From: Salminus brasiliensis
Taxonomy: Eukaryota; Chordata; Actinopteri; Characiformes; Bryconidae
Reading direction: 5' to 3'
Length of the DNA stretch: 64,000 nt
Assembly (NCBI RefSeq): GCF_030463535.1
Contig: NC_132901.1
Location: forward strand, 645,480-709,479
This document shows, in pieces, positions 9,848 through 52,653 of the stretch (positions are counted from its first letter, which is position 1; every line of letters begins with the position of its first letter). The translations under genes were made by a program, and so were the position numbers. The notes under the pieces were generated by a model, which searched no databases, was not told the DNA's origin, and saw only the letters and a list, made by a program, of their open reading frames with translations.

Positions 9848-11373
9848 CTACACTCTCTCAGTTTTAACCTCAGAATAAGTGCTGACATCAGAGCTCTCAA
9901 CGTTCTTCTTCTTCTTCTTCTTCAGACGTTTCTGTCCACTGTTTGGGAGATCCAACGTAGCGTAACAAACATTCTCACCTCCGGCCTACAGAGATGTAGA
10001 AGCATCATATTAATGAAGCACACTGAGATCACTGTAAGTGCTGGTAAAGTGCTGTAGACTGTAGAGTAAGTGTGAATGCATGCTGTACCTCGTTACTCTT
10101 CCTCATCTTCATGTTCTCTCGTTGTTCTGCTCTACAGTCAGCTGTTACGATTAGGAAGAACATGAGGATAGTCAGATAGGCTCACGTTACGGTGACTACG
10201 ACTCTACCATGCATTCAAATCAGAGAAAGAGAGAGAGAGAAAGTACCTTTGGTTCTGGTTCTGCAGATGCAGTACACACAGGTGGAGGAGATCAGTGAGG
10301 AGAGGAGAACACACACTGGACACACACTGACCAGCAGCTTCCAGCAGATGCTACAGTCTGATACAGGAGGGCAAGGGCTGGGTTGGGGTTGGCTGGTACA
10401 GGGAACGGTCATGTCTGAAATAATTGAGAAAGAAACTAAGTTAATTAGCATCCAAATCTGTTTGAGGCACTAATGAATGATCTAACAGTATTTGGCTTTA
10501 ACTTCGAGTCCAAGACTATGAGAGTCCAGACCAAGTATACCCAACAGCAGAGACCACGTCAAGCCCAAATATTATGTCCAAGTTCACTAAAACTGTGGAA
10601 GAACCTTTTAAGATACTTTGAGGTCCTTCAAGAAAATGATTTTGGAAAGAAAATGTTCCTTGAAGGTTCCTCAAAGCACTTTAAGAGAATCTTCCACAGT
10701 TTCAAACTGAAGAACCTCCAAAGGTTCCTCAATGATCGTATACTTTTAACAGTGTACAAATACTATGTAGACCAACACATGTCTGAGAGATTAGACAAAG
10801 CATGGTGCATCCAAGGCTGACTGTAAAACAACAGCACTAGAATGAGAGAGTAAAACTGAGTAATCTTACCAAGGAAAGAGAGAAAAGTGGTTCTGTTTCC
10901 ATCCTGATAAATATCTTCATTGACCTTATCTCCACTTCTATTCTTGCAGACCTTTGTCTGATGTAGAGCACAGTAGTACAGACCCAGGTCAGATTCAGAG
11001 ACGTTCTTCACCAGCAGATCGTAAGTGTTGTTGGATTGATTCCACACTACAGAGTACTGTGAAGAAAAATCAAGACCAGAACTATCTGCTGATATGACGA
11101 GAGGTGGTTGATGATCATGTAAGGATTTTCTCAACCACTTTAATATAAATCTAGCTTTCCAAACACAGTCGCTGTGGAGAGTGACATTGTCACCTGGTCT
11201 CACTCTCATCTCCACGACTCTTCCAGAGGTGCTGGAGAACCGAACACCTGAAACACCAGCAACACTTTAGATGAAGCCGTTTAAGGTATTCCTAACCAGG
11301 TTCTGTTGAACGGGTATTACTGGACAGTTTACTTACCCAAGAGAACGAGGAGAACAGCATGAAATCTCTCCAT
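9848..11373 (-). CDS. VR1: V-set Ig, ITIM-bearing inhibitory receptor
   Basis: Exons in coding order: 11337-11373, 10870-11247, 10247-10414, 10089-10141, 9848-9985, giving 257 residues. All introns have GT-AG ends and the phases agree. Residues 1-21 are a signal peptide (MERFHAVLLVLLG). The V-set domain (about 22-137) has VTLHSDC, the C-strand tryptophan in KWLRKS, ESDLGLYYCA and a J-like G-N-R-T-T. Exon 3 codes a short Pro-rich stalk and a Cys-rich membrane segment (about 165-188) without a buried charge. The tail has two ITIMs: VCYATL (Tyr220) and STYSEV (Tyr249), joined by a lysine run. Known ITIMs recruit SHP phosphatases, so an inhibitory surface receptor of leukocytes is inferred. The family name is not known to me; NITR or NILT relatives are possible. 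Its near twin is VR3. Confidence 0.82.
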
Positions 11374-11437
11374 CTCAGAGACTGGTGCTGGGGGGCTGAT
11401 GGTGGTGAGGGTGTTTGAAGCGGATGTGCTTGCTGAG

Positions 11438-11485
11438 ATCTGATTGGTCCACGTCAGTGGAAATTTCTATTTTCGATTACGCCTT
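11438..11485 (-). promoter_or_regulatory. VR1 promoter: CRE + CCAAT module
   Basis: On the minus strand TGACGT (11451-11456) is followed after three bases by CCAAT (11443-11447), about 75 bp above the ATG. The flanking TGATTGGTCCACGTCAGTGG and the adjoining TTTCTATTTTCGATTACG are shared by most genes of the array. CREB/ATF and NF-Y binding is inferred. Confidence 0.55.
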
Positions 11486-12139
11486 ACTCTGTAGTGGTTA
11501 ATACTGCTGTTTAAACAACTCACCAATGAGAGCCATGCAAGCTGATCACATGCTTCCTGACTGGTCACTCCTTAGCAGTGTGGTCTCTGATTTAGACAGT
11601 ATAACTTTTTTGTTCTATTCAGTTGTCTGACTCTGGGTGAGAACCAAAAATGTCTCATAAAGTAAAGATGATCATATTCAGAAGCATTGACACTGAAGAC
11701 GATAGGAGGAAATATTTAAATCAGACCACATGACTTAACGTGTCTACCAGATCCTCAATGAAACTTGCTACAGCAAATTAGCTCAGCCAGGCATATCGAA
11801 GGAGAACTTACTATAGGATTCAGGCCTACTTGACACCTGACCCAGTGTTTCCATCAGTAATTCTCAAACTTGTCACAAAACAATCCAGGCAATTCAGTTT
11901 TTTTTTTTATGTTAATGTATCCTTAAGGAAAACTGTGGGTGGTTTAGGAGGTACTGAGGACTGCTGTAAAACTCCCTGCCTTACATTAGCAGATCACTGT
12001 TTACAGTGACATTTCTGACCCTTTGAACTCGAGCTGTGTGAGACTGTAAGACTGATCATTTCAGACTATAAACTCTAAACTGATTCTATGAACAGTTAGT
12101 TCATAATTCAGTCCCGAATTTAAGAACAGAGAGGTGTGA

Positions 12140-13045: not shown

Positions 13046-13051
13046 TTTATT
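13046..13051 (-). terminator. VR2 poly(A) signal
   Basis: AATAAA on the minus strand about 400 bp beyond the VR2 stop, followed by ATTAGATTTCAGTG-type context shared with the other genes. Confidence 0.5.
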
Positions 13052-13452: not shown

Positions 13453-14998
13453 CTACATTCTCTCATATACTACTTCGGAATATATGTGTTTCTTCTTCAG
13501 CCAATCCAGTCCTTTGTGCAGGAGATCCAACGAAGTGTAACAAATGTCCTCATGTCCAACCTGCAGACCAAGCTTCTCTTTTAGAAAACTAATAATGAGG
13601 TGCAGAAGCATCATATTAATGAAGCACACTGAGATCACTGTATGTGCAGGTAAAGTGCTGTAGACTGTAGAGTAAGTGTGAATGCATGCTGTACCTCGTT
13701 ACTCTTCCTCATCTTCATGTTCTCTCGTTGTTCTGCTCTACAGTCAGCTGTTACGATTGGGAAGAACATGAGGATAGTCAGACAGGCTCACGTTACAATG
13801 GCTACGACTCTACCATGCATTCAAATCAGAGAAAGAGAGAGAGAGAAAGTACCTTTGGTTCTGGTTCTGCAGATGCAGTACACACAGGTGGAGGAGATCA
13901 GTGTGGAGAGGAGAACACACACTGGACACACACTGACCAGCAGCTTCCAGCAGACGCTACAGTCTGATACAGGAGGGCAGGGGCTGGGTTGGGGTTGGCT
14001 GGTACAGGGGATGGTCACGTCTGAAATAAGCAAGAAAGAAATTGCTTTAATTAGGTGATCAGAATTCCCTTAATAATAATAATTAATAATATACTGTTTC
14101 ATTCACACAGTAATGTTAATTAATTACTCCATTTGGCTTTAACTTCAGCACAGTCAAGAAGCCTTTCTTGAGTTGAAAACCATTCAAAAACTGAGTAGTC
14201 AAAACTGTCTAAATGAGAGTAGAGATCATGTCAAGGTCAAGTCGAAGGGAATTTTGAGACCAAGTCCAAATACAAATACTTGGGAGACCTGAACAAGTCC
14301 AAGGATAAAGAAATTCTGAGATTAGAGGTATCTTTGAATTATTAGTCCATTCAAACTAGGTACTACCAAATAGAATGAATTCCAATACAATTCTGACAAT
14401 AAGACAAAAGATCTCAAGTTCAAGACCGACTTGTGAACTGCAGCGGGAATCAGAGGGTAAAATCTTACCAAGGAAAGAAAGAAGTGTGACTCTGTTTCCA
14501 TCCTGATAGATGTCTTCATAGACTGGATCTCCACTTTTGTTCTTAACCATCTTTTTCCTATGTAGGGAGCAGTAGTACAGACCTAGATCAGATTCTGTAA
14601 CATTCTTCACCAGCAAACTGTAGCTTTGGCTGGAGATATTCCACACTACGGAGTACCGTGGAAGAACATTCTGGCCCAAATCCTTTGCTGATACATTGAG
14701 AGGTGGTTGATGATCATGTAAGGGTTTTCTGAACCACATTATTCTATATCCAGTCGTCCAAACACAGTCACCAGGGAGAATGATATCATCTCCAGGTCTC
14801 ACTCTCAGCTTCACAAATCTTCCAGAGGTGCTGGAGAACCAAACACCTGAAACACAAAATGAAATCCTATTGAAGCAAAGACACACACACAACCAAGCCC
14901 TTCTCACAGCTTTGTGATATCGCAAGATATGCCATGAGATGAAGTTAGATGGTTTACTTACCCAAGAGAGCGAGGAGAACAGCTCTAGATCTCTCCAT
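13453..14998 (-). CDS. VR2: V-set receptor with ITIM and YxxM tail
   Basis: Exons: 14962-14998, 14469-14846, 13853-14020, 13695-13747, 13453-13560, giving 247 residues with consistent GT-AG splice sites. The signal peptide is MERSRAVLLALLG. The V domain has the B-strand S/G-D-C, MWFRKPLHDHQPP, ESDLGLYYCS and G-N-R-V-T-L. The stalk and TM exon is almost identical to that of VR1. The tail differs: ITIM one is ICYTSL (Tyr220), but the second tyrosine is in HIYSEV (Tyr239, not a consensus ITIM because His is at -2), and the chain ends in YERM (Tyr244), a YxxM motif of the kind that binds PI3-kinase p85. A mixed or altered signalling output is inferred. VR4 is its twin. Confidence 0.8.
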
Positions 14999-16912: not shown

Positions 16913-18423
16913 CTACACTCTCTCAGTTTTAACCTCAGAATAAGTGCTGAAATCAGAGCTCTCAAAGTTCTTCTTTTTCTTCTTCAGACATTTCGGTCCA
17001 CTGTTTGGGAGATCCAACGTAGCGTAACAAACATTCTCACCTCTGGCCTACAGAGATGTAGAAGCATCATATTAATGAAGCACACTGAGATCACTGTAAG
17101 TGCTGGTAAAGTGCTGTAGACTGTAGAGTAAGTGTGAATGCATGCTGTACCTCGTTACTCTTCCTCATCTTCATGTTCTCTCGTTGTTCTGCTCTACAGT
17201 CAGCTGTTACGATTAGGAAGAACATGAGGATAGTCAGACAGGCTCACGTTACGGTGACTACGACTCTACCATGCATTCAAATCAGAGAAAGAGAGAGAGA
17301 GAAAGTACCTTTGGTTCTGGTTCTGCAGATGCAGTACACACAGGTGAAGGAGATCAGTGAGGAGAGGAGAACACACACTGGACACACACTGACCAGCAGC
17401 TTCCAGCAGATGCTACTGTCTGAGACAGGAGGGCAGGGGGTGGGTTGGGGTTGGCTAGTACAGGGAACGGTCACGTCTGAAATAATTGAGAAAGAAACTA
17501 CGTTAATTAGCATCCAAATCTGTTTGAGGCACTGATGAATGATCTAACAGTCTTTGGCTTTAACTTCGAGTCCAAGACTATGAGAGTCAAGACCAAGTAT
17601 ACCCAACAGCAGAGACCACGTCAAGCCCAAATACTATGTCCAAGTTCACTAAAACTGTGGAAGAAACTTTTAAGATACTTTGGAAATGATTTTGGAAGGA
17701 AAATGTTCCTTGAAGGTTCCTCAAAGCACTTTAAGAGAATCTTCCACAGTTTCAAACTGAAGAACCTCCAAATGTTCCTCAATGATCGTATACTTTTAAC
17801 AGTGTACAAATACTATGTAGACCAACACATGTCTGAGAGATTAGACAAAGCATGGTCCGTCCAAGGCTGACTGTAAAACAACAGCACTAGAATGAGAGAG
17901 TAAAACTGAGTAATCTTACCAAGGAAAGAGAGAAAAGTGGTTCTGTTTCCATCCTGATGAATATCGTCATAGACTCGATCTCCACTTCTATTCTTGCAGA
18001 CCTTTGTCTGATGTAGAGCACAGTAGTACAGACCCAGGTCAGATTCAGAGACATTCTTCACCAGCAGATCGTAAGTGTTGTTGGATTGATTCCACACTAC
18101 AGAGTACTGTGAAGAAAAATCACGACCAGAACTATCTGCTGATATGACGAGAGGTGGTTGATGATCATGTAAGGATTTTCTCAACCACTTTAATTTAAAT
18201 CCAGCTTTCAAAACACAGTCGCTGTGGAGAGTGACATCGTCACCTGGTCTCACTCTCATCTCCACGACTCTTCCAGAGGTGCTGGAGAACCGAACACCTG
18301 AAACACCAGCAACACTTTAGATGAAGCCGTTTAAGGTATTCCTAACCAGGTTCTGTTGAACGGGTATTACTGGACAGTTTACTTACCCAAGAGAACGAGG
18401 AGAACAGCATGAAATCTCTCCAT
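16913..18423 (-). CDS. VR3: V-set Ig, ITIM-bearing inhibitory receptor
   Basis: Exons: 18387-18423, 17920-18297, 17309-17476, 17151-17203, 16913-17047, giving 256 residues. It is the duplicate of VR1 with the same signal peptide (MERFHAVLLVLLG) and TM exon. The tail has VCYATL (Tyr220) and STYSEV (Tyr248), with one lysine fewer in the linker. The V domain differs from VR1 at about nine residues, in two clusters: around the B-C strands (SDCVLKAGFKLKW, where VR1 has SDCVWKARFILKW) and after the YYC strand (DRVYDDIHQ against DKVNEDIYQ). Flanking introns hardly differ, so the V exon has changed faster. Role as for VR1; ligand unknown. Confidence 0.82.
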
Positions 18424-20504: not shown

Positions 20505-22049
20505 CTACATTCTCTCATATACTACTTCGGAATATATGTGTTTCTTCTTCAGCCAATCCAGTCCTTTGTGCAGGAGATCCAACGAAGTGTAACAAATATC
20601 CTCGGGTCCAACCTGCAGACCAAGCTTCTCTTTTAGAAAACTAATACTGAGGTGCAGAAGCATCATATTAATGAAGCACACTGAGATCACTGTATGTGCA
20701 GGTAAAGTGCTGTAGACTGTAGAGTAAGTGTGAATGCATGCTGTACCTCGTTACTCTTCCTCATCTTCATGTTCTCTCGTTGTTCTGCTCTACAGTCAGC
20801 TGTTACGATTGGGAAGAACATGAGGATAGTCAGACAGGCTCACGTTACAATGGCTACGACTCTACCATGCATTCAAATCAGAGAAAGAGAGAGAGAGAAA
20901 GTACCTTTGGTTCTGGTTCTGCAGATGCAGTACACACAGGTGGAGGAGATCAGTGAGGAGAGGAGAACACACACTGGACACACACTGACCAGCAGCTTCC
21001 AGCAGACGCTACAGTCTGATACAGGAGGGCAGGGGCTGGGTTGGGGTTGGCTGGTACAGGGGATGGTCACGTCTGAAATAAGCAAGAAAGAAATTGCTTT
21101 AATCAGATGATCAGAATTCCCTTAATAATAATAATTAATAATATACTGTTTCATTCACACAGTAATGTTAATTAATTACTCCATTTGGCTTTAACTTCAG
21201 CACAGTCAAAAAGCCTTTGTTGAGTTGAAAACCATTCAAAAACCGATTAGTCAAAACTGTCTAAATGAGAGTAGAGACCATGTCAAGGTCAAGTCAAGTG
21301 AATTTTGAGACCAAGTCCAAATACAAATACTTGGGAGACCTGCACAAGTCCAAGGATAAAGAAATTCTGAGATTAGAGGTATCTTTGAATTATTAGTCCA
21401 TTCAAACTAGGTACTACCAAATAGAATTAATTCCAATACAATTCTGACAATAAGACAAAAGATCTCAAGTTCAAGACCGACTTGTGAACTGCAGCGGGAA
21501 TCAGAGGGTAAAATCTTACCAAGGAAAGAAAGAAGTGTGACTCTGTTTCCGTCCTGATAGACGTCTTCATAGACTGGATCTCCACTTTTATTCTTAACCC
21601 TCTTTTTCCTATGTAGAGAGCAGTAGTACAGACCTAGATCAGATTCTGTAACATTCTTCACCAGCAAACTGTAGGTTTGGCTGGAGATATTCCACACTAC
21701 GGAGTACCGTGGAAGAACATTCTGGCCCAAATCCTTTGCTGATACATTGAGAGGTGGTTGATGATCATGTAAGGGTTTTCTGAACCACATTATTCTATAT
21801 CCAGTCGTCCAAACACAGTCGCTGGAGAGAATGATATCATCTCCAGGTCTCACTCTCAGGTCCACAAATCTTCCAGAGGTGCTGGAGAACCAAACACCTG
21901 AAACACAAAATGAAAGCCTATTGAAGCGAAGACACACACACAACCAAGCCCTTCTCACAGCTTTGTGATATCGCAAGATATGCCATGAGATGAAGTTAGA
22001 CGGTTTACTTACCCAAGAGAGCGAGGAGAACAGCTCTAGATCTTTCCAT
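20505..22049 (-). CDS. VR4: V-set receptor with ITIM and YxxM tail
   Basis: Exons: 22013-22049, 21520-21897, 20905-21072, 20747-20799, 20505-20612, giving 247 residues. It is the duplicate of VR2. The signal peptide is MERSRAVLLALLG. The V domain differs from VR2 in several places (FVDLRV against FVKLRV, SSDC against PGDC, HRKKRV against HRKKMV). The tail again reads ICYTSL, then HIYSEV and a terminal YERM, so the tail change predates the duplication. Unlike VR2 its promoter keeps an intact CCAAT box. Confidence 0.82.
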
Positions 22050-22160: not shown

Positions 22161-22479
22161 TACTCTGTAGTGATTAATACTGCTGTTTAAACAACTCACC
22201 AATGACAGCCATGCAAGCTGATCACATGCTTCTTGACTGGTCACTCCTTAGCAGTGTGGTCTCTGATTTAGACAGTATACATTTTTTTTCAACTCACTTC
22301 TTTGACTTGAGAGAGAACTAACAATATTCAATACAGCAATAATGATTACATCCAGAAGCAATGACTCTGAACAGGATAGGCCCAAAGGCTCATTAAAGTC
22401 CCAAAGGCTCGCTCATCTCTCAGATCTTCTACTGAGCTTCCTGACATATTGCCAGCATAGTCTGTATGGAATAATAAAC

Positions 22480-22544
22480 ACTGTTACTGTAGTGAGCAGC
22501 ATCGTCTCCTGGTCTAACTCCAGGAATCCTGGAGAACCAAACAC
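22480..22544 (-). pseudogene. Fossil V exon 5' end
   Basis: A TTTCAG acceptor is followed by GTGTTTGGTTCTCCAGGA, coding the V-W-F-S-R-I-P-G start of a receptor V exon. A degraded stretch reading roughly V-R-P-G-D-D comes next, after which similarity stops. Only about 65 bp remain. It is absent at the matching position of duplication copy 1. Confidence 0.6.
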
Positions 22545-22954
22545 CTGAAACACATGATCAAACATCTGAAAAGTCATACCGATTGTAAATGAACACAGGT
22601 TAAGTTGTTCTTAAAAAAATCAAAACTAGAGATTAGTCTTTTCATCTTAGCAATTGGACTAGACCTGTCCACCTGTGCATTGAAGCTGGTCCTCAGAGCC
22701 TCACAGATATTTCACCTATTTGCCCATGAGATAAAGCAAATTCTAGATGGTCAAGTCTAGGAATTCTTGAGGAATTTCATTTCAGAATATAAACTCTAAA
22801 CTGACTCTGGAACTCTTAGAGCTCATATTTCAGTCTAAATGAACTCAAGAACAAGACCACTGTTAGCAATAAGATGCATAACTAGATGTTTGATCGCTTT
22901 ATTAGGTAATAAACTTACTCAGGTCTCAAAGTTAAGGATAGACGGTTCTTAGAT

Positions 22955-25545: not shown

Positions 25546-27615
25546 CTACATCCTCTCAGTTTTAACCTCAGAATAAGTGCTGAAATCAGAGCTTTCAGCT
25601 CTCCTTTTCTTCTTCAGACATCTCTGTCCACTGTTTGGGAGATCCAACGTAGCATAACAAACATCATGTTCTCCAACCTACAGTAGAGGTGTCCCATTAA
25701 TGAACTACACAACGTTCACCATATGTGCAGTGTAGAGTAGGTGGAAATGTGTACTGTACCTCATCATGGTTGCTTATTTTTACGTTTCCTCGTTGGTCTG
25801 CGGTCATGATGGTGAGGAACATAAGAACACAGTCACACAGACAAAGAAAGGGATTTGCAGAGACAACCATGGGATTATTATATGCCGGATTAACCAACAT
25901 TATTTCATATTTTACAGGTTTTAGAATCATCAGGGACTGTACCTTTGGTTCTGGTTCTGCAGATACTGTACACACAGATGGAGAAGATCAGTGAGGAGAA
26001 CACACTGACCAGCAGCATCCAGCAGATGCTACAGTCGGATACAGGAGGGTGGGGGAGGTCTAACAGTGAAGGATAACCGCAACAGTGGACGTTATTTATT
26101 ATTCAGCAAACCAAGAGAGTTTATGGACCAATAAGCACAAGGTCCAGATCATTAGCAAGCTTAGACTATCTAGGAATTGGTGAATTCAGCTTCATAATTG
26201 GTCATCTTGCAGCTCATTGTCATGGCGTGCTAGGCCAGACCAAGTTGGGAAGAACATTCACAGAGATGGTCTCAAACCAAGGATAAAACGAGGCAAACAA
26301 TGCAGCAACTATGGGGTACAAACACAACACAAACCTGACAAACAAGAGGGTGAACCAAAAACGAATCTGGGACTGGGGGTTGAGCTGGCGTGAGCAGTTA
26401 TTGCTGGGGGGGAAACCAAAAGGGGACCAGAAAGGAATCCTGCAGGCAGAGCTTGGGCTAAACAGGGGTTAACGTTAACTGCAGTTGAACGGTGCTATAA
26501 CGACAAAGGGGAGAGAGCTGGGGGACCAGCTACTGAGCAAAAACTGCAAGGCAGACCAAACCTGGAACCACAGTGTGCTGCCTTGAGTGAGGGTCGCCTA
26601 GCTGGGATGTGGGTAGCCATAGAAACCAGACCGCGAGCGAGCGAGCTATGCTGATAATGTGGATAGCAGGGTGACCTGCTCCTGAATGAGGACACAGAGC
26701 AGAAACTGGCCTCAACACACCTCTAACAGTACGGGGAACCTCTCGGGCGACCTCAAGGTCCCAAACGATACAATTCTCGGCAGGTGTCGAGGCTCCTTAA
26801 GTACCCCCAGTCCCAGGTGTAACTCATGAAATGAGACACTGAATCAAACACATGAATGAAAACAAGCCGGAAGTCCTTATTTGGGCCTGTGGGCAGCAGC
26901 TCGGAATCGCCCCGGGGGAGGGCGTGATACCGAGGGACTGACACTCATGAGCAATCAATTCCAGTCTGAATGTTTATGTAGAGAAAGCATTGTATAAAAC
27001 CATATCCATAAAAAGAATTTGAGATTTGATATTAATTTCATAAATCAGCAGGTCTAATGAATAGGTCACAAGACTCAGCAAGTCAGAGAGAGTAAACTTA
27101 CCAATGAGAGAGAGTCGAGTCGTCTGTTTTCCAAAATAATAAACACCTCTGGATTGTGTATCATTGGTCTTTCTCTCCTGCCAAGCGCAGTAGTACACTC
27201 CCAGGTCTGCCTCAGAAACGTTCTTCACCAGCAGATCAAGAGATAAGTTGGAGGAATTCCACTTAATAGAGTAACGTGGCAGCAGGCTTTCAGTTGTCAT
27301 AATGAAGGGAGGCTGATGGTGGTGCGAGCAGTTCCTAAACCAAACGGTCTTAAATCCAGTCTTCCAAACACAGTCGCTGTAGAGAGTGACGTTGTCTCCT
27401 GGTCTGACCCTCATCTCCACATCTTCTCCAAAAGTCCTGGAGAACCAAACACCTGAAACCCCTGAAACCCAAAAGCTTGCTTTAGACTTGCTTTATTTGG
27501 AACCTGTGTAAAAACACACCTCCCAAATCCTAAATTACTCAACTAGATCAAAATGAGCAGATGTGAAAGTTTACTTACACCCGAGAGCCAGGAGAACAGC
27601 TCTTGCTCTCTCCAT
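25546..27615 (-). CDS. VR5: V-set Ig, ITIM-bearing inhibitory receptor
   Basis: Exons: 27579-27615, 27102-27452, 25943-26059, 25760-25797, 25546-25677, giving 224 residues, the shortest member. The signal peptide is MERARAVLLALGC. The V domain has VTLYSDC, VWFRNCSHHHQPP, EADLGVYYCA and G-K-Q-T-T-R-L. The stalk is very short and the TM reads SDCSICWMLLVSVFSSL. Exon 4 codes only about 13 residues. The tail has VCYATL (Tyr189) and STYSEV (Tyr216) and ends K-T-E-R-M. Intron 2 carries a 726-bp solo LTR insertion. Function inferred as for VR1. Confidence 0.8.
26218..26943 (-). mobile_element. Solo LTR with 5-bp target duplication
   Basis: The element runs from TGTCATGG to GACTGACA, so its ends are the inverted TGTCA/TGACA typical of LTRs. 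It is flanked on both sides by CTCAT (26213-26217 and 26944-26948), a perfect 5-bp target-site duplication. No internal retroelement sequence is present, so it is a solo LTR. It sits in intron 2 of VR5. Fragments of the same family lie at 1-305 and 23915-24200. Confidence 0.8.
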
Positions 27616-30300: not shown

Positions 30301-30388
30301 AAATTGTTGGGAACCAGGGTTGGGAAGCATTGAATTATACACCACATTTTGGCAAGCCAGCCAGGAGTCTTTTCAGATTGTCCATAGT

Positions 30389-30394
30389 TTTATT
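30389..30394 (-). terminator. VR6 poly(A) signal (candidate)
   Basis: AATAAA on the minus strand about 170 bp beyond the VR6 stop. Others lie farther on, beyond the LINE fragment (29848, 29871). Confidence 0.35.
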
Positions 30395-30561: not shown

Positions 30562-32303
30562 TCAGAAGATCTCCACTCTCTCAAACTTAACCTCAGAATA
30601 AGTGCTGAAATCAGAGCTCTCAACTCTCTTCTTCTTCTTCTTCTTCTGACGTTTCTGTCCTCTGCTTGGAAGATCCAGTGAAGCATAACACACACCATCT
30701 TCTCCAGCCTGCAGGAGATCCAGAAACATCTGACTTACAGAGAACTGTACATATAAGTGTAACACATGGGTGGGTGGGTGATTGTGCTCTGCTACCTCTT
30801 CACTTCTTCTCTCTTTCTGATTCTCTTTTGTCTTCCCATGATTGGGTTTCTGCTCCACTGCAAATGAATAAGAATGGAAAGCTAAGCACAGCAAGCTAAA
30901 TCCAAGAGCATTAGCACTCCATTCATTGACCTCTTTGTCCAACTACAAAGGCTGCCCAGGTCATCAGATTCAGGACTACAAAGCCAAGACTGAACCAGCC
31001 AGCCCCTCCGTACTTGATGGCGATGATCAAAAGCTGATCTGCACCAAGAGCCCTTTCAGCTTCAAGTACGGCTCGGCTCGACCCGCCATCCTTTAAGATC
31101 CACGGAAGACGAGCGTCCAGACTTTTTTCTGTCCTGCACCGAAGTGGTGGAACGAGCTTCCCCTGAGTGTCCGAACAGCAGAGTCCAACGCTTGCTGTCC
31201 TCAAACCCAGACTGAAGACCCTCCTTTTCTGAGAGGACTTGGGCGATTAGCAGAGTGTCTAAGATTAGTTGCTCTGGATAAGAGCGTCTGCTAAATGCCT
31301 TAAATGTAAATCGAGAACCTCTAATAGACAATGTGAAGAACCTTTACATCAATTGAAGCTTTTTAGAATTTTAGAAGATTCTCCAAAAGTGGCTCTTCTA
31401 TCACATCACTCAAAAGAACTCTTTGTAGAACCTTTATGTTCAAGAGTGCAAGAGTGGATCTGTGGTTGACTGACCAGTGAAGAAGATATACTGTTTGATT
31501 GCATCACATAGAAATATCTTCAGTGATTAAAGCCACTTTCTCAGACCCTGATTAAGCCTAAAGTCAAACTAAGAAGAATCTCCAATGGTGATTCAGCTGG
31601 CCTTGAAGTTTAGTCTACGACTAAGCTTAATCCAGCAAACAATTGATAATCAATACAATCTTAAAACTTGAAGGTAAGAAAGTGCTCAGTGGTCAGTACC
31701 TTTGGTTCTGGTTCTGCAGATGAAGTACACACAGGTGGAGGAGAGCAGTGAGGAGAGGACAACACACAGAGGACACACACTGACCAGCAGCTTCCAGCAG
31801 GTGCTACAATCTGCCACTGGAGAGGTGGAGGTGGTCTGGGGGAGATCAGTATTTGGCACGGTCTGGGTGGGGTCAGCACATGGGGTCATCACTCCTGCAT
31901 CAACTAGTGAAGCAACACTCAATGTTCAGGGGCAGAATGAGTGACAAGATACATCTTTACCATCAACACAGGGTCAACATTCCACACATTCCAAACTGAA
32001 TTCTTTACCTATCTGTTAAGCATGGTGGTGGTAGCAGCTTGCTGTGGGTCTGTTTTCCCAGTGGACAGATGGACTACCTTAGTATTCTCAAGTATAACCT
32101 CAAACCATTAGCTAGTGTTGCAACAGGACAATGACCCCAAACACAAAAACTTTTTTTAGTGGTCTCTTTCCAAAGTCCTGACCTCAACTAGAAGGACTTT
32201 GCATTAAAGGTCAGGAAACCAACACATGTAACTGAACTCAACCAAAAATCCAACCAGAATTCTGACAGACGCTTGTTGATGGCTACCAATAGCATCTGTG
32301 CTG

Positions 32304-32362
<59 letters not shown>

Positions 32363-33119
32363 TTTTGGGGGAAATGTGCTAATGTTCAATACTGGGCAGA
32401 TGGATTAGGAATACTGACAACTGACCAGCTATTTTGGTCATTTTTTAGTACATAGCTCTTTAACTAGCTGGAGAAAAATGGCAGTTGCCTTATTTAGACA
32501 GGTGCACTCTCACAGATTTGGCGTTATCAAAAATAAAGCAGCTAGCTTGATGCTAGCAAATATTTCACTGCAGTCGTAATGGTGGTGAAACTTGCAGTTC
32601 TGGATGTTTTTAGAATTCAAGAATCAGAAGGCCGGAAAGTGTGAACTTACCAATGAGAGAGAGTCGAGTGACCCTTTTTCCAAAATGATAAACATCTTTC
32701 AATCGTAGTGCGCAGTAGTACACACCCAGGTCGGATTCAGAGACGTTACTCAGCAGAAGATTCTGGGACTGGTTCGTGTAATTCCGTCTAAACGAGTAAC
32801 GTGGCATCAAACGTTCTGTTATAATGAGAGGAGGCTGACCCTTGTGTGAACAGTTTCTAAACCAAACTGTAGTAAATCCACCCTTCGGAACACAGTCGCT
32901 GTGGAGAACAGCATTGTCCCCTGGCCTGACTCTGGCCTCCACTTCTGCTCCAGAGATCCAGGAGAAGCAAACACCTGAAACCCCTGAAACCCACCAACCT
33001 CACTTTAGACTCAATGCAGAAGATCAGCAGATGTTGGAAATGCTCGAGTTGAAGGTATCAAGAGTGTAAAGGTGTACTTTACCCAAGAGAGCGAGGAGAA
33101 CAGCTCCTGATCTGTCCAT
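30562..33119 (-). CDS. VR6: V-set Ig, ITIM-bearing inhibitory receptor
   Basis: Exons: 33083-33119, 32651-32974, 31700-31894, 30796-30857, 30562-30708, giving 254 residues. The signal peptide is MDRSGAVLLALLG. This is the shortest V domain of the set, with AVLHSDC, VWFRNCSHKGQPP, ESDLGVYYCA and G-K-R-V-T-R-L. The stalk is the longest (two TD/ADxPQT-like repeats: CADPTQTVPN and TDLPQTTSTS), then SDC-type TM sequence ending in FICRTRTK. The tail has VCYASL (Tyr214) and STYSEV (Tyr243) and runs on to V-E-I-F. The first residues after the signal read V-C-F instead of V-W-F. Intron 3 holds an L2 fragment and intron 2 a (TA)n tract and a Tc1 relic. The role is inferred as inhibitory. Confidence 0.8.
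31015..31312 (+). mobile_element. L2-like LINE 3' end in VR6 intron 3
   Basis: Contains GATCTGCACCAAGAGCCCTT and ends with GGATAAGAGCGTCTGCTAAA and TGCCTTAAATGTAAA, the typical tail of fish L2 elements. It is inserted in the intron between the TM and exon 4 of VR6. Confidence 0.65.
32005..32250 (+). mobile_element. Tc1-like transposase relic
   Basis: AGCATGGTGGTGGTAGCAGC and GGACAATGACCCCAAACACA correspond to the G-G-G-S and D-N-D-P-K-H region of Tc1 transposases. It is degraded and lies in VR6 intron 2. Confidence 0.5.
32307..32361. repeat. (TA)n/(CA)n microsatellite
   Basis: About 48 bp of alternating TA followed by a short CA run, in intron 2 of VR6. Confidence 0.9.
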
Positions 33120-36660: not shown

Positions 36661-39600
36661 CTACACTCTGTCAAATTTAATCTCAGAATAAGTGCTGAAA
36701 TCAGAGCCCTCAACTCTCCTCTTCTTCTTCTCCAGATGTTTCTGTCCTCTGCTCGGGAGATCCAGCGAAGCATAACACACCTCACCTTCTCCTCCATCCT
36801 GCAGAGATGTTAAGGACATTTGTTATTTAGAAAGCTAATGTTTGAACACAAGAGCATCATTTACAGCAGTTTATTCTGTACCGTACCTCACTACGCTTCC
36901 CTGTTCTCTCCACATTCCCTCGTCGTTCTGCTCCACCATCAGCTGCTACAATCAGAAGGACATGGCGTGATGTTCAGAGAGGCAGACAGCACAATTAAAC
37001 CATACTGCTGCACCTTTGCCTCAAAGGTTCTTCAAAAGGTTCTTTGAATGCCACGGTTACGGTGTAATGTGGGGTTTAAATGATACTACCCCTTTTTGGG
37101 GGGTATTATTTTATGGCGCATGTAACAGATGGTGAATGTCCTAAGTCAGTACCAGATTGGTGCTCGGTGAGACTGTTGCGGTAATGGGAGCCCAGTGCAT
37201 TTCCACTACACCACCACATCTGTGAGGGGTGGCAGTATAAACAAAATAAAAGCTATATAGAAAAAAGGGCGGGAAAACAAACAAAAGGAGATACCAGGAA
37301 TGGTGTTTACTCAAACAAAGGACAAGCTAAAAACCTTTATCAGTTCAAACCATTTTCTTTTCGCCACCAATTACAACTAACTCTTTCTTTTACCTTCAGC
37401 TCTTCTTCACTATTCACAACTCAAACGCTTTTCTTTTAACTTCAGCTTTTCTTCATTATTTGTAGCACAAACTCTTTTCTTTTTCAGCTTCTGCATTTTT
37501 TTTTTCTTTCCCAACTGTTCACAACTTAGACCCACTGTTACCGTTCACCCCTCTACAAAGGTGTGACAGGGAATTGTGTTTGGCTTGGTGTATTTATACC
37601 ATGCCACACAGGTGGGTCTGGTCAGCATTGATTACCGCTTTGGCTTCTGGGGCTTGGAGTTCTTTGCTCCAGCTTCACCAGTGGTCCTACTGTGCTGGCC
37701 AGGCCCCCTGCTGGTGGCTGACGGTACATGCTGCCTGCTTACAGACACCATAGAATCCTAAGAAGGTTCTTAAATTAGTTTTTGAGAAGGTCTAGATTCA
37801 GATTCATGATCCCAAATAAGAAAACATTAGTGAATGCTTTGGGGCCTTGGGGTCTGAAGCTAGAGTTACAGGTTGGGCCAGCCTTGGGGTCTGGAGCTGG
37901 GGTGAGAATTGGGCCAGCCTTAGGGTCTGGAGCTGGGGTAAGAATTGGGCCAGCCTTGGGGTCTGGAGCTGGGGTAAGAATTGGGCCAGCCTTGGGGTCT
38001 GGAGCTGGGTTTAGGATTGGGCCAGCCTTGGGGTCTGGAGCTGGGGTAAGAATTGGGCCAGCCATTAAGGTTTGGAGCTGGGTTTTTTAAGAATGGACCA
38101 GTCTTGGGGTTTGGAGCTGGGGTTGGAATTGGGCCAGCCTTGGAGTCTGGAGCTGGGGTTAGGATTGGGCCACCCTTGGGTTCTGAAGTCAAAGGTTGGG
38201 CCAGCCTTGGGGTCTGGAGCTGGATCTAGGGTTGGGCCAGCTTTGGGGTCTAGAGCTTGGGTTAGGGTTGGGCCAACCTTTGAGCTTGGAGCTATGGATA
38301 GGGTCTGGCCAGCTTTGGGGTCTGGAGCTAGGGTTGGGCCCCAAAAATCTTGGTGAAAACTGATTAAAGAGAACTTCCTTCTTAATGGTGGTGAATAAAA
38401 CTTGTTGTTCTTTTTGTCTCCAAAAGTGTTTTTGGAGACTTTGATTAAAGAACCATTTGAAGTACCTTGATTGTTTAGAGTAAATACCTCATTTTATCAA
38501 TATTACATATCAAACAGCGAGTACCTTTAGTTCTGTAGCGGTAGACGCAGTACACACAGATGGATACAAGGAGAAAACACACAGGACACGCACTGACCAG
38601 CAGCTTCCAGCAGATACTACAGTCTGATACAGGAGGGGTGGAGGTGGTCTTGGGGAGGTCAGCAAACGGGGGTGTCTGGTCTGATATTAGTTAGAAATTG
38701 GTGTAAATAAGACAGCATTTAACACAGCATTTTATAGGAGAGTTTTTTGAGTGACCTCACCATGGAGAGAGAGTTGGATTGTTCTGTTTCCTCTATCATA
38801 AACATGGGATTTATCTCTGCCTTTGGAAATTTTCCTCTGTTTACTGCAGTAGTACAGACCCCGGTCTGATTCACAAACGTTCTTCACCAGCAGATCATGA
38901 GCATTGCTCGAGGAATTCCATACAAAAACATAGCGTGGATTAAACATCTGCAACGTATCTTCAGTCAGTACAGCGGGAGGACCCTCGTCTGAGGTTTTTT
39001 TAAACCAGGCTGTTTTAAATCCACTCTTCCAAACACAGTCGCTGTAGAGAGTGACATCATCTCCTGGTCTGACTCTCATCTCCACTTCTTCTGCTCCAGA
39101 GATCCTGGAGAACCAAACACCTGAAACCCCTGAAACCCACCAACCTCACTTTAGACTCAATGCAGAAGATCAGCAGATCTCTGATGCCAGAAAGCCTGGT
39201 CAGAATTTCAAAAGTAATTAAAAGATGAACTGATCTCTAAAAGGCAAAAAGTGCAAAATACTGAAATATTTAAAGCAATATCAGTGTATTATTTTGGTTT
39301 TGTACATTTTAAGAGCAAAAAGGGGGGCACACCATGGAAACATTTGGACACCTCAAGCAAATTGAGCTCTTGAGCTCCAGGACTGAGGACTTGGCTTGTC
39401 CGCAGTCACTGTTCAGAAAGGCCAGCTAATACAAGCTTCTACAGCAGGATAATGGTCCTACATCTCAAACTCCATAATGGACTACCTCATAAGAAGCAAG
39501 CTGAGGGTTTTGCCATGGCCCCTTACAGTAACCTGACCTTAACATCCTCAAACATCCATGGATAGACCTCAAAAAAGAGCAGAAAAGCAAGACCACCCAA

Positions 39601-40108
39601 CATCCTCACAGATCTATAACCTCCTGCAGGAAGAATGGGTAAATAAAATGCCTCCAAACAAGGACTAAAATACTCTTAGCTGCCACAAAAAGCATCACAG
39701 CTTGGAAACAAAGTTTTTTTAAGTACAGGAGGTCCATTTCTTTATGTTTTGTTATTTACAGAAACTGCAAAACATGGAAATAAAGAATCAGTAACTTCAG
39801 AAGATCTTCTACTTACTTAGTTGGGAATCAAATCAAATCAAAAATGACTTTTCAACGGTTAATCTCACAAAGCAGCTTTATACAATCAGTAATTAGTAAA
39901 AACACAACAAATCAGCAACATCTCAGCCTAATCTCAACCCCAAACTCAAACCTAAACCTAAACCTAAACCTATTCCTAAGTCTACACTACTGAGACTACT
40001 CAGGTTCACCAGCATATGGATTTATCCAACAGAGGAATAATGAAGATGACCGAATGTAAAAGTTTACTTACCCATGAGCGCAAGGAGAATAGCCCTTGAT
40101 CTCTCCAT
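36661..40108 (-). CDS. VR7: V-set Ig, ITIM-bearing inhibitory receptor
   Basis: Exons: 40072-40108, 38761-39120, 38525-38680, 36887-36942, 36661-36798, giving 248 residues. The signal peptide is MERSRAILLALMG. The V domain has VTLYSDC and AWFKKTSDEGPP (no Asn-Cys-Ser-His here). An extra cysteine lies in NVCESDRGLYYCS, and the J-like strand is G-N-R-T-I-Q. The stalk reads FADLPKTTSTPP and the TM region SDCSICWKLLVSACPVC. The tail has VCYASL (Tyr212) and STYSEI (Tyr240). Exon 4 has two adjacent acceptors (TAGCAG), so one residue may be optional; with the upstream one the exon begins at 36945. Intron 3 contains a long minisatellite. The first intron is unusually long (about 950 bp). Confidence 0.78.
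37842..38340. repeat. Minisatellite, about 35-36 bp unit
   Basis: More than ten diverging units of GGGCCAGCCTTGGGGTCTGG plus GAGCTGGGGTAAGAATT. It lies in intron 3 of VR7. Both strands are open in places, but only because of the repeat. Confidence 0.9.
39300..39975. repeat. Degraded repeats in VR7 intron 1
   Basis: Contains a degraded Tc1-like stretch (CAGGATAATGGTCCTACATC), part of the AAAGCAGCTTT interspersed repeat from about 39838, and a short (CCTAAA)n run at about 39950-39972. No exon is seen. Confidence 0.4.
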
Positions 40109-44198: not shown

Positions 44199-47100
44199 TT
44201 AGTTCCTAAACTCTGAGAGAACGTCCTCCTCAGAAGATCTATACTCTGTCAGTTTAACCTCAGAATAAGTGCTGAAATCAGAGCCCTCAACTCTCCTCTT
44301 CATCTTCTTCAGATGTTTGTGTCCTCTGCTCGGGAGATCCAACGAAGCATAACACACCTCATCTTCTTCTTCAACCTGCAGAGATATGAAGGACATTTTT
44401 ATTTTAGAAAACTAATATTTGAACACAAGAGCATTGTATAGATAAATGAAGTACACTCCATACAATCAATGCTCAACAGATTAGTATATCATCAGTATAT
44501 ACTCTACTGTACCTCATTACGCTTCCCTGTTCTCTCCATATTCCCTCGTTGTTCTGCTTCGTCATCATCAGCTACAATGAGAAGGACATGATGTCATGTT
44601 CAGATTTGGCTAGAATTCATTTTCTTTATTATTAATATCATAAGACAGACTGTACCTTTCTTTCTGTAATGGCAGATGCAGCACACACAGCTGGAGAAGA
44701 TTACGACAAACACCGGACACACACTGATCAGCAGCTTCCAGCAGATGCTGCAGTCTGATACAGGTGGGGTGCTGGTGGTCTGGGGCAGGTCAGCACACGG
44801 GACGGTTGAGTCTGACATCAGTGGAGATGCGTTAATTAAGGCAGATTAGCTTTGCCATCCTGTTTCAGTGAGTTGTTTAAAAGGTTCCTTGAATGTGGCA
44901 GATTATGATGAGTAACATCATGCACTGATGCAGCCATGACATTAAACATTGATTATCTGGTTGCAATGGCATCTACATATTAGGCATATGTAGGTCATGA
45001 GGTGGGACCTCTAAGAGCATCAGTGAGCCGTGGGCATTGATGACCCTATCAGCTGTCAGTTTTCCGTTTTTTGGAATGCACTTTTGGTAGGTACCGACCA
45101 CTGCATATACTAGAGATGTTCTGACCCAGTTGTCTAGAACATCACTGTTTGGTTCTCAGATTATTATGCTTCTTCATTTGTCCTATTTTCAACATTTCAA
45201 AATTAGCTTTTCTTTACTTGCTGCCTAATATGTAGATTCGACTTTTTGGCAGGTGCCATTGAACCAGATAATCAATGTTATTCACTTCACCTGTATTAAT
45301 GTTTTCAATATTATGGCTAAGTGGTGTACATCTTTAATAAATAAAAAACAAGTTTTAATTTCTTAGGGTTTTCAGGGTTTAAAATATCCATACATCCACC
45401 AAGACTATTAATTAGTGGTACTGAAAGTTTTAAAGTGTATTTGAACTTTAACATCCTGCTAGTGATCATGATTGGCTACAGCTGGCAGCTTTCCTGTGAA
45501 AACCCAAAAAAAGGGGTTGTTTGGCCTGAGATCTGATATCTGAGAAGGGTGATTGTAGATTTGGGAGGTGTGGACACTTTGCCAATGTCTGGAGGAAGAC
45601 CTGAACTGATTTGATTTGATCTGAATTTTTAGCTGAAAGGAAACTGGTTTCCCATAAACTGGAAGCTGCTTGAATGCCAATCAGATGGGTCAGATGAGAC
45701 AATGATGTTTTAAAGCTAGTAGAATTTTAAACCATTAGCTAGAACGTTAAAACTCAAATCCAAAAGGACAATGAGCCCAAGTCCAGGGTTGTAGAATGAC
45801 TGAATAAAGCAGGCTAACATTAAGCATTTGAAATGCAATCACAAAGTCATGACATCAACCCTATAGAACCCAACTGCGCTTAAAAAAAACAACAAATTTA
45901 ATCAAATTCATTTGTAGAAGAGTTGCCAAATATCCAATCAGAATTCTGACAAAAACTTACTGAGGTTCTGGTCAAGGTGCAACTTGTTAAAAGACATTTA
46001 ACCAAATATAGACCCTGGGGTTGACTTCAGAAACCCCCAAACAATAAAAATACGTTCACTAAATTGTTGTTTATTTCCATTAAAGATGTGTGATGTCGGT
46101 CATTCTGCCCCAGAAAAAGAACAGTTCAAAGAAATCACTCATAGCCCAACATTGCCATGACATTCATGCCCATAATGAGTGTGTAAAAGTCTCACGACTA
46201 CTGCAACTGTAACTTACTACACCTAATACACTCATGCCCCAAAACAAAGCCAAAATGAGCGAACTTACTGAGGAGAGAGAGTCGAGTTGTTCGGTTTCCT
46301 TTATTGTAAACTGGGCGTTTATCTGTGGAAAGAACTCCATCCTGCAGAGCGCAGTAGTAAAGTCCCAGATCTGATTCAGAGACGTTCCTCACCAGCAGAT
46401 CATGAGTTCGGTTAAAGTTATTTGACACAAAAGAGTAACGTGGAGACATCATGTCTCCAGTCATTACAGTGGGAGAATCCTTGTGGGAGGAGCTTCTAAA
46501 CCAAACGGTCTTAAATCCAATCTTCCAAACACAGTCGCTGTAGAGAGTGACGTTGTCTCCTGGTCTGACTCTCATCTCCACTTCTGCCCCAGAGATCCTG
46601 GAAGCCCAAACATCTGAAACCCACCAAACTTACTTTAGACCCAAAAGGTCAGCAGGTCAGCATGTCTTAGATACACTATATGACCAAATGTTTGTGGACA
46701 CCTCTTTTAATAAATGTATTCAGACACTTTAAAATGTGCAAATGCACACACACAGCTTGTCTAGGCCCTGTAAAGAAGTATTGCCAATAGAATAGGACTC
46801 TCTGGAGCAGATCAACATCATGACCCTATTGGCTCCATGCTGCCTAATGCCAGGCGTGGGCTAGAGGGGTATAGTATAAAGCCCCCCAGCATTGAGGAGC
46901 TGTGGAGCAGTGGAAGAACTGTGTTCTCTGGAATGATGATGGTGGAGCTCCATCCAGTACTTTTGAATGGGATGAGTTGGGGAGTTGATGATCATCATCC
47001 AACATCCTGATCTCACTAACATGGCTGAATACAATTAAATCCTCACAGCAATGCTCTGAAATCTAGTGGAATGCTTTCTTCTCTGGACAGTAGAGACAGT

Positions 47101-47202
47101 TACTCAACAGTGAATGCCGAGGTGTCCCACAAGATCAAGGTAGACTAGTGTAAAAGTTTACTTACATACGAGAGTGAGAAGAACAGCCCTTGATCTCTCC
47201 AT
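44199..47202 (-). CDS. VR8: V-set Ig, ITIM receptor with extended tail
   Basis: Exons: 47166-47202, 46269-46613, 44656-44811, 44513-44571, 44199-44375, giving 257 residues. The signal peptide is MERSRAVLLTLVY. The V domain has VTLYSDC, VWFRSSSHKDSP, ESDLGLYYCA and G-N-R-T-T-R-L-S. The stalk reads CADLPQTTSTPP; the TM region has I-C-W-K-L-L-I-S and ends in CHYRKK. The tail keeps VCYASL (Tyr208) and STYSEV (Tyr236). Just after this, one base fewer than in VR7 shifts the frame, so the usual stop is skipped and about 14 extra residues ending S-E-F-R-N follow. Whether the extension is used is unknown. Confidence 0.78.
44935..45320 (-). mobile_element. Tc1-like transposon relic in VR8 intron 2
   Basis: GATTATCTGGTTGCAATGGC, CACTTTTGGTAGGTACCGAC, CTGACCCAGTTGTCTAGAAC and GCAGGTGCCATTGAACCAG match the ends and transposase start of the Tc1-like family. 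Heavily deleted. Confidence 0.6.
45365..45635. repeat. Direct repeat, copy 2 (VR8 intron 2)
   Basis: Matches 43640-43935, including CATGATTGGCTACAGCTGGC and GATTTGATTTGATCTGAAT. Confidence 0.75.
46672..47140. mobile_element. Short DNA transposon with imperfect TIRs
   Basis: Begins ACTATATGACCAAATGTTTG and ends near GTGTCCCACAAGATC. The interior (GGAGCAGATCAACATCATGA, TCTCTGGACAGTAGAGACAG) matches copies around STIM2 in opposite orientation. Non-autonomous; in VR8 intron 1. Confidence 0.6.
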
Positions 47203-49880: not shown

Positions 49881-50831
49881 CTCTCTAGAGAGGAAGGGTG
49901 ATCTTTGTCCCCACCTTCACCTATGATCAGAAACTTTGGGTAATGATATTAAAGAACAAGACTAAGGATACAAGCAAGTGGCAGGGCTCCCTCTTTGCCA
50001 CAGGATTAGTTATTTGGAAGAGGCTTGGAGTAGAGGTGCTTATCTCTTGTATTAAGAGTAGTGTGGTGCTTGTGCTTTGGGCATCTGAAAGCCTTGACTG
50101 GACTCTGTTGGAGGTTGGTGGGCCTAAGGAAGATGCAGAAGAAGACCCAGGACTCATGAAAGCGATTTTGTCTCCTGGCTTACCCGGGTGCAGCTGGTGA
50201 AAGTGTCTGGAGACAGGGATGCCTGGGTTTCCTTGCTTGCTTGGTGTACATTACTAAAGCTCAGGTCTGATGAAAGAGGGAGACACTCAAGCTTGGTATA
50301 GATTCACCAGTTATTCACGGCATAATCTAAATCTAAATTCTAAATTCCCAAGAAATGCTTTGGACCAGGGAATTTTTTATATTAATCAAGAACCACAGCA
50401 GCTGGTTCAACACACTGTCCATGGTGCTGAAACTTTTGATGTCAAACTATGTCTAAATGTAACGGTTTGGGTGTGTTTGAAGGTGTGTTGAAGGTGTGTC
50501 TGAATGATCTCAACCTCTTCAACCCATCATTTAAACAGCTTTCTCTGACACATAAACACCAGTATAAGTTCAACTTCCAATGCAACTGTGGTTGGTGTGG
50601 CACAACAGATAACACCACTACCTGCCAGTGAGCTACCATACCATGTGGGAGACTGGGGTTCAATTCTCGGTCTGGGTGACTATGCAGCCCCTACAATAAG
50701 AGTCCTTGGGCAAGACTCCTAACACTGCATAGGCCCTCCTCTGTAATATGAGCTAAATCCCATAAATGTAATGTAAAGCAATGAAAGAAAACAGTGAATT
50801 TGTGCTGATCAGTAGTCAGATTTTATAACCA

Positions 50832-50837
50832 TTTATT
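50832..50837 (-). terminator. VR9 poly(A) signal
   Basis: AATAAA on the minus strand about 180 bp beyond the VR9 stop. Confidence 0.45.
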
Positions 50838-51012
50838 AGCAACATAAGATCAGGTTGTTCTGGATACAGTTTGAATAAAGAACAAAGCTAACAGTACTGA
50901 CAAATTACTGTAAAAGAATGTAAACAAAAAGTCCAGGACATAAGATCTAGTAATTCAAACAGTATTGCAATTTAAATGAACTGAAGAAATCCAGAATTCT
51001 AGGAAATCAATT

Positions 51013-52653
51013 TTAGCACCCAGAATTCTCCAAATGAGTAATCTGCACCTCAGAATAAGTGCTGAAATCAGAGCTCTTTACTCTTCTCTTCTTCTTCTTC
51101 CTCAGATGTTTCTGTCCTCTGCTCGGAAGATCCAACGAAGCATACCACACCTCCCCTCTTCCAACCTGCAGTCAATTTTAGAGACAGCTCTTTCCACTAA
51201 ATATTTGGCATCGTATTTCGAGAAACTCAGAAATGTAAATGTGGACCCAAATGATGAGAATGGACCAAATTTCTATTATATTTTCTATAATATTTATTTA
51301 CTTCACTGTGGATCTGAGTAAAAACTCATGATGAGTACAATGATGAGCATTGAATTATCCTTAATCCTTTATCCCATTTGCAACCTGTTTAACCCCTTAC
51401 ACTATACACTAAGGTGTATAACTCAGTAAACGGCTGGGGCTCTTCTTTGGGAACAGAAGTTTACAATAACACATTTGGGTATAAGCTGTTTAAGGGGATT
51501 TTGCAGATTTACCATTTTCCATGTTCTTTATAAACAGATAAATTAATAATGTTTGGGTTTACTGCAGCGTTGGTTCCCACTTTACTATTTGAAGCTTAAA
51601 TGCACAAACATCACAAATATTAATATGCCATATAAATGATATTGTACAGTACAGTTTACAGTATATAGTGTGTTGTACCTCATCCCGTTTTATCTCCTCC
51701 AACCCTCCTCGAGCATCAGCTACCAAATCTGCAGTAAAACACACAAACACAGGTATGATAAAACAAAACTGAAGGTGACACTTTCTGCCAGTCGGCGGAC
51801 CACAGGCTGTTCAAAAAGGGGTTAAGAAAGAAGACTCTTTAGACTAAGAGTCGCTATTCGATTTCGGGAGTACCTTTGGTTCTGGTTCTGCAGATGCAGT
51901 ACACACAGGTGGAGGAGATCAGTGAGGAGAGGACAACACATACAGGACACACACTGACCAGCAGCTTCCAGCAGTCTGGTACAGCAGGGGTGGAGTTGAG
52001 ACACGAAGAGACAGTCTCTGAGGAACACAAGCATTTTAACTACAGACCTTTTAAATGCACCTATTTGGTAGGTGTTTCCAATAAAGTGCTGAAAAAGCAC
52101 AAGTACAAGACCAGGCCACAAATCAAGAGACGGCATTCTCACCTCTGTAAGAGAGTCGCCAGGTCAGGTTTCCGTAACGGTACACGGTCCTAGCTCCCTT
52201 GCCGTCGGCACTGATCTTTCTCTCATGCGTAGCGCAGTAGTACAGCCCCAGGTCGTTCTCAGTGACGTTCCTCACCAGCAGATCGTACGCCCCCCCGGAC
52301 GAGTTCTTCACGAAAGTGAACCGCGGGAACTTGTTTTTGAAAATCTCTGAATGTGTGATTACGAGAGGAGGCTGATGCTGGTGAGAGCAGTTCCTGAACC
52401 ACGCGATGTACAATCCAGCAGGTATAACACAGTCGCTGTAGAGAGTGACGTCGTCTCCTAGGCTGACCTTCATCTCCACTTCTTCTGCTCCAGAGATCCT
52501 GGAGAACCAAATGCCTGAAACCCCTGAAACACACCAGCCACACTTCAGACTCAACAGAGCAGACCAAGCAGATCTTTACGGTCAGAAGATCTAGGTATAA
52601 AAAATTGTGTGCTTACACGTGAACATGAGGACAACTTCTCCTGGTGTCTTCAT
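51013..52653 (-). CDS. VR9: V-set Ig, ITIM-bearing inhibitory receptor
   Basis: Exons: 52617-52653, 52143-52514, 51874-52017, 51679-51728, 51013-51165, giving 251 residues. The signal peptide is atypical for the array (MKTPGEVVLMFTC). The V domain has VTLYSDC, AWFRNCSHQHQPP, ENDLGLYYCA and G-N-L-T-W-R-L. The stalk has CLNSTPAVPDC; the DCSIC of other genes is shortened to D-C-W by a 9-nt deletion. TM and TRTK follow. The tail has VWYASL (Tyr209) and STYSEV (Tyr238) and ends after ITHLENSGC. The upstream acceptor for exon 3 was chosen because it keeps the stalk homology; an in-frame acceptor inside the exon is also possible. It is the array member nearest to STIM2. Confidence 0.78.

Follow-up and report, generated by a model that had tools for sequence, protein, structure and literature searches.

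The window analysed here, a 64,000-nucleotide stretch of the Salminus brasiliensis genome (contig C28:645480-709479, in a 1.07-Gb genome of 103 contigs), contains nine likely members (g1 to g9) of a large family of germline-encoded type I receptors that are inhibitory and carry a single V-type immunoglobulin (Ig) domain, and from their sequences we read this family as a separate, NITR-like and inhibitory one. A six-frame reading of the window revealed nine V exons on the minus strand, and locating the exons of each gene and checking the splice sites yielded nine complete models, all on that strand within positions 9848-52653. Each gene comprises a 37-nt first exon, a V exon, a transmembrane exon, a short exon 4 and a tail exon, with GT-AG introns and phases 1-1-1-0 in all nine cases, including g6, whose exon 4 (near 30828) is divergent yet has an AG acceptor, a GT donor and the correct phases. 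An alignment of the nine V exons has 28 invariant columns. The complete five-exon models with matching phases on a single strand that had been proposed from the letters alone (the sequence-only reading) are thus borne out, as is the assignment of one V-set domain to each gene: there is one V-type Ig exon per gene, the six-frame reading showed no second Ig exon in any of them, and V-set is the top Pfam match for eight of the nine V exons (above its cut-off for six), general Ig models being the only meaningful matches in the Pfam scan of these exons.

All nine tails have two tyrosines, the first within the pattern [VI]-x-Y-x-[ST]-L and the second within STYSEV in six genes, STYSEI in g7 and HIYSEV in g2 and g4, the latter outside the consensus of the immunoreceptor tyrosine-based inhibitory motif (ITIM). 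The claim that every member has an inhibitory tail therefore stands as far as two-tyrosine, ITIM-type tails are concerned, but has to be qualified for g2 and g4. Likewise, the claim that no transmembrane segment is charged is right for the cores that were read, which contain no charged residue, but overlooks a lysine at the outer edge (CWKLL) in most transmembrane exons. Three motifs put forward as common to the family proved narrower: S-D-C, given as invariant, is present in eight of the nine genes (g2 has GDC), W-F-R-N-C-S-H in three (g5, g6 and g9) and the J-like G-N-x-T strand in five. The earlier interpretation is partly supported, namely as regards single-V receptors with ITIM-type tails.

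The window holds only the right-hand third of a larger array. A genome search with the V domain of g9, whose counts are lower bounds, uncovered at least 26 V exons open over the core at C28:542,415-698,000, two of them on the plus strand, along with one more C28 V exon split in two pieces (620,681-621,051) and a few weak pieces; one of the 26, L017, has a frame shift within its last strand. The array extends ~103 kb beyond the left edge of the window, a stretch that includes two copies on the opposite strand, and as a whole occupies C28:542-698 kb, bounded by an SRCR gene on the left and a STIM gene on the right. The main point of the sequence-only reading, an array of such genes, stands, with nine of them complete in the window, but the array is larger than described and its relics had been missed. 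The sole other strong match to the g9 V domain is one gene on contig C1 (39% identity, E 2.2e-13; the C1 gene), whose own V domain, in the reverse search, gave hits at 27 positions of the C28 array with E <=6.1e-7, the next matches lying at E >=1.3e-4. A transmembrane-exon query matched the array at 30 places, contig C1 at a single place and nothing else at E <= 10, and a tail query matched 21 places, all within the array and two containing a stop. The tail of the C1 gene, which this query missed, was read by eye and contains VYYASL and FSTYSEV; no tail was seen for the copy L020 in the 2 kb examined, and no gene was recognised among the neighbours of the C1 gene. Nine copy pairs are spaced 52.6-53.2 kb apart and share 94.7-99.6% identity across the longest piece of each alignment, and this even spacing of near-identical pairs argues that a block including g1 to g3 was duplicated in tandem, be it as a true duplication or as a haplotype artefact.

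Displacement of the B-strand cysteine is real and affects most copies. According to PMC12051499, a disulfide joins strands B and F in most canonical Ig domains, with exceptions such as CD2. The array copy L018 reads C-D-C, and its G-D to W stretch shows a gap-free alignment to antibody light-chain variable domains, in which the first cysteine falls on the canonical B-strand site. The same spacing is found in 14 aligned V exons of the array (beyond that stretch the C1 gene lacks one residue), and because it equals that of L018, the serine of S-D-C occupies the canonical cysteine site. We then conducted a census of 27 V exons (26 from C28, the other from contig C1, near-copies being counted several times), in which the canonical site has cysteine in four (L018, L019, L023 and L036; L018 and L019 are 98.7% identical), serine in 21 and glycine in two. 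The cysteine two residues further on (+2) is retained in all 23 V exons that lack the canonical one. Conversely, L023 (C-D-R) retains the canonical cysteine and has lost the +2 cysteine, and none of the 27 lacks both; the C1 gene and two near-identical array copies have the two together. A further cysteine on strand C' (W-F-R-N-C and similar) is present in all four V exons with the canonical cysteine and in 12 of the 23 without it. One array retains C-D-C with the C' cysteine, C-D-R, and S-D-C with or without the C' cysteine. A C-D-C copy lies at C28:644179, and the V domain of g9 has three cysteines.

C-D-C plus the C' cysteine is likely the ancestral state, because the C1 gene and L018 carry all three cysteines and branch outside the rest in a tree of V exons. 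The displacement is probably derived, and S-D-C is more than a tag of the family, as it marks loss of the canonical cysteine; this loss occurred once or twice, depending on where L023 branches relative to g9. We tentatively propose that this V-type family has shifted its inter-sheet disulfide by one beta-strand register, with Cys 23 replaced and the +2 cysteine paired to the F-strand cysteine. In most copies the canonical cysteine would have been lost and the +2 cysteine would have taken over, most likely pairing with the F-strand cysteine and freeing the C' cysteine to drift. We infer this pairing because V exons with two cysteines only (g2, g4, g8, L032 and L034) provide no further partner within that domain; cysteines also occur in the stalk, which the transmembrane exon encodes, and are possible alternative partners. 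In the canonical geometry position 25 is not opposite position 104, and a bulge or register slip is therefore required for a C25-C104 bond. An AlphaFold2 model of g5 (pLDDT 80.4, pTM 0.75, nine sequences) has residues 24-26 and 31 of the B region in strand and residues 27-30, with S28, D29 and C30, outside it, which fits a B-strand bulge but does not prove it. In the open-access literature searched, we recognised no paper on this family or on its displaced B-strand cysteine, and related C-D-C proteins presumably occur in cyprinids.

For the V exon, pooling seven dissimilar genes gives a ratio of nonsynonymous to synonymous substitutions (dN/dS) of 0.10 for strand F, 0.17 for strand C and 0.30 for strand B, and these framework strands are constrained; strand G (0.70) is not constrained in this sense, and the FG and BC loops give 0.63 and 1.28. 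The genes are also mosaics. Identity between g1 and g2 is 92-100% in the promoter and first exon, about 75% in the V exon, down to 37% in intron 2, 96-99% in the block from the transmembrane exon to exon 4 and about 74% in the tail. Synonymous divergence (Ks) is lower in the transmembrane exon than in the V exon for 35 of 36 gene pairs, the exception being g1-g3 (the pairs are non-independent and three transmembrane pieces are partial), and V-exon Ks between unlike genes is 0.33-1.33. The V alignment rejects the transmembrane tree (approximately unbiased test, p-AU 2.4e-25), and the transmembrane alignment rejects the V tree weakly (p-AU 0.024). Transmembrane exons are homogenised and V exons old and divergent, for which recombination or gene conversion among copies appears to be the simplest reading. 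Against this background the array could still be largely non-functional, a set of duplicated relics with V exons open owing to recent duplication, as might be suspected from the relics in and near it, the broken V exon at C28:620681-621051, the shifted frame of L017 and the stops among the tail matches. But framework dN/dS is well below 1 over an old V divergence, and splice sites and tails are intact in all nine window genes, and we regard this explanation as highly improbable.

As to kinship, the sequence-only reading had likened the plan to those of NITR, NILT and CD300-like receptors and had left the genes outside any named family. No clean match to any one family emerged, but that verdict is too flat given the likeness to NITRs, and kinship with NILT or CD300 is poorly supported. 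NITRs, in the sections of PMC2442602 that define them, have the exon plan L, V, (I), TM, C1, C2 with an ITIM or itim and a J or J-like strand of the form FGXGTXLX[V/L], FGXG or TXLX[V/L/I]. The window genes share the L-V-TM-C1-C2 plan of single-V inhibitory NITRs, the ITIM tail and the tandem clustering, and a J-like T-x-L-x-[VLI] strand occurs in three of the nine V exons (g5, g6 and g8). For the modelled fold of g5, catfish NITR10/11 have the highest identity among the 50 structures listed and are, by title, the only chains among these that are neither antibody nor TCR (6mwr is not explicit); no CD300, TREM, PD-1 or CD28 structure is among these 50, which excludes nothing, and PDB sequence searches were swamped by antibody fragments and gave no family placement. 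These likenesses would be expected if the array were a divergent NITR branch relocated here, which we nonetheless consider unlikely. Other V loci of the genome are IgH-, IgL- and TCR-like, and contigs C9 and C19 carry NITR-like loci; all these names (like those of the MOG, CD226-like and CD300/pIgR-like loci) come from motif recognition and not from a database match. In a tree of V exons from this genome, the ten family rows form one clade (92/78; 98% of 200 bootstrap trees) that does not group with the 13 NITR-like rows, which lie outside; the TCR-like rows are adjacent (87/85). This tree is unrooted, takes the C9 and C19 loci as its NITR reference and leaves out L042 (C19) and L082 (C29), which yielded no reading frame. 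In an earlier tree of single representatives, spoiled by long branches, a CD226-like row lay inside the family and the family formed one side of a branch in 0 of 200 bootstrap trees; since the tree was rebuilt with more NITR-like rows and without the CD226-like row, the clade depends on that omission. In a search with the family profile, the NITR-like exon L041 ranks second among non-members (40.3 bits), but an unnamed cluster on contig C29 outscores it (42.7 bits) and a set on contig C2 about equals the NITR-like loci. Further unlike NITRs, the family has a transmembrane module matched elsewhere only on contig C1, a tail module matched only in the array, a displaced B-strand cysteine and a single Ig exon in each of the nine genes.

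The remaining named families fit less well. PD-1, of the CD28 family, has a similar five-exon plan. The sections of PMC11599192 on this family give PD-1 one V domain, a transmembrane segment and a tail with an ITIM and an immunoreceptor tyrosine-based switch motif, and CD28HL3 of cypriniforms and siluriforms a tail with [I,V]xYxxL followed by VTYxxV; members are named loci in synteny groups, and PD-1 itself is described there without the proline motif in the third complementarity-determining region (CDR3). One V domain, a stalk with transmembrane segment and an inhibitory tail recur here, and the CD28HL3 tail is close except for S replacing V, but STYSE[VI] is neither TxYxxV (PD-1) nor VTYxxV (CD28HL3), the CDR3 proline motif of the CD28H-like/CD28X kind is absent in the nine window V exons and the C1 gene (YYCAKVRPIM), and a large tandem array contrasts with named loci in conserved synteny. 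An expansion of the CD28 family, PD-1- or CD28HL3-like, is thus very unlikely in our view. NILT genes, as described in PMC3022915, encode a single V domain and ITIMs over six exons, one of them devoted to the connecting peptide, with intron phases 1,1,1,1,0. Clustering, the single V domain, ITIMs and phase-1 introns followed by one phase-0 intron before the ITIM exon are common to both; however, the window genes have five exons with phases 1,1,1,0, no exon of their own for a connecting peptide, two tyrosine motifs where NILTs have four or five, and no additional NILT-type cysteine pair (CX3C, CX6C or CX7C) in the nine V exons (the CX7C of g1 and g3 starts at the F-strand cysteine and hence is not such a pair; the CX3C of L020, a copy beyond the window, lies far from the C-C' region). 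CD300, SITR and pIgR-like proteins are likewise V-type Ig receptors of fish leukocytes, and a passage of PMC3031540 gives the CD300/pIgR-like kind a WCR motif and two cysteine pairs. Neither that motif nor a second disulfide of this type was seen in the window V exons, and the CD300/pIgR-like locus on contig C27 reaches 7.5 bits on the family profile, among the lowest scores of the panel. We give next to no credence to a NILT, CD300 or TREM-like origin.

We favour instead a separate family within a system of known kind, the expanded inhibitory Ig receptors of fish; many uncharacterised V-set receptors occur in zebrafish natural killer-like cells, according to part of PMC5340972. If expressed and spliced as modelled, the receptors would work in the mode of inhibitory NITRs, NILTs or KIRs: the V domain would bind a cell-surface or soluble ligand via CDR-like loops, the two tail tyrosines ([VI]-x-Y-x-[ST]-L, and S-T-Y-S-E-[VI] in seven of nine) would be phosphorylated, and the tail would then recruit SH2 phosphatases and dampen leukocyte activation. 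The family probably grew by tandem and segmental duplication next to the STIM gene, the V exons diverging and the exons on the transmembrane side being homogenised through recombination.

Features of the window (positions are those of the window; C' Cys, the strand C' cysteine)
Feature	Span	Strand	Details
g1	9848..11373	-	signal-peptide exon 11373-11337; V exon about 11247-10870, SDC, without C' Cys; transmembrane exon 10414-10248; exon 4 about 10141-10089; tail exon 9985-9848
g2	13453..14998	-	five exons; V core 14853-14467, GDC, without C' Cys; tail ICYTSL + HIYSEV
g3	16913..18423	-	five exons; V core 18304-17918; near-copy of g1 via 7.05-kb duplication
g4	20505..22049	-	five exons; V core 21904-21518; near-copy of g2; tail ICYTSL + HIYSEV
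g5	25546..27615	-	five exons; V core 27459-27100, SDC + NCS; AlphaFold2 model made
g6	30565..33119	-	five exons; V core 32981-32649, SDC + NCS
g7	36661..40108	-	five exons; V core 39127-38759, SDC, without C' Cys; second tail motif STYSEI
g8	44228..47202	-	five exons; V core 46620-46267, SDC, without C' Cys
g9	51010..52653	-	five exons; V core 52521-52141, SDC + NCS; first tail motif VWYASL
Broken tenth copy	3877..5285	-	V pieces, transmembrane piece, tail piece; frames interrupted
V relic with internal stop	7471..7684	-	
V relic, N-terminal part alone	22474..22551	-	
STIM gene	55962..63679	-	EF-hand exon 63679-63524; SAM 61749-61597; SOAR 60226-59924; last exon 57560-55962

Between and within the genes lie several other stretches. 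A 36-bp minisatellite of 13.7 copies (37844-38335), open in several frames, sits in the third intron of g7. Two similar open frames (..SLGLRTASVGLCCSDTQGK..) are found between genes at 29967-30389 and 30926-31246 on the minus strand and are probably a mobile element, and a third stretch (48877-49239, minus strand) reads as the opposite strand of the ..SLGLRTASVGLCCSDTQGK.. piece. The right-hand neighbour was identified as a STIM gene by Pfam matches to EF-hand and SAM and by a SOAR region that matches STIM1 structures. That the array lies beside STIM2, as had been claimed, is thus right for a STIM gene, which we take by recognition of its sequence to be the stim2 paralogue. Its last exon (55962-57560, minus strand) contains several repeats of a '[SRT]RK[ILV]SR[DE]E'-like motif, which looks like an expanded phospho-site repeat; human STIM2 presumably has about one copy. 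The left-hand neighbour, L064 (C28:531000-540914), has SRCR exons and an Ig-like exon that scores under the Pfam cut-off; the gene may code for an SRCR-Ig receptor. Elsewhere in the genome, the NITR-like loci (C9:24.33-24.63 and C19:32.58-32.76) comprise V-type exons and Cys-rich exons resembling NITR I domains, the unnamed V-exon cluster at C29:1.59-1.63 Mb (L038, L081 and L083) has FSNGTRL-like last strands, and the unnamed set at C2:58.21-58.28 Mb (L055 and L084) has the last strand FGKAxRLxF.

Fish possess several fast-expanding inhibitory Ig receptor families, and the array described here is a large, compact one, cleanly bounded from SRCR to STIM, with a lone relative on contig C1 that has both B-strand cysteines. 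Its mosaic genes keep their V modules distinct while their membrane modules homogenise. If the displacement of the disulfide is true, the rewiring of the core Ig disulfide would become directly testable across one tandem array, whose copies would form a natural series for how an Ig domain survives the loss of its most conserved cysteine.

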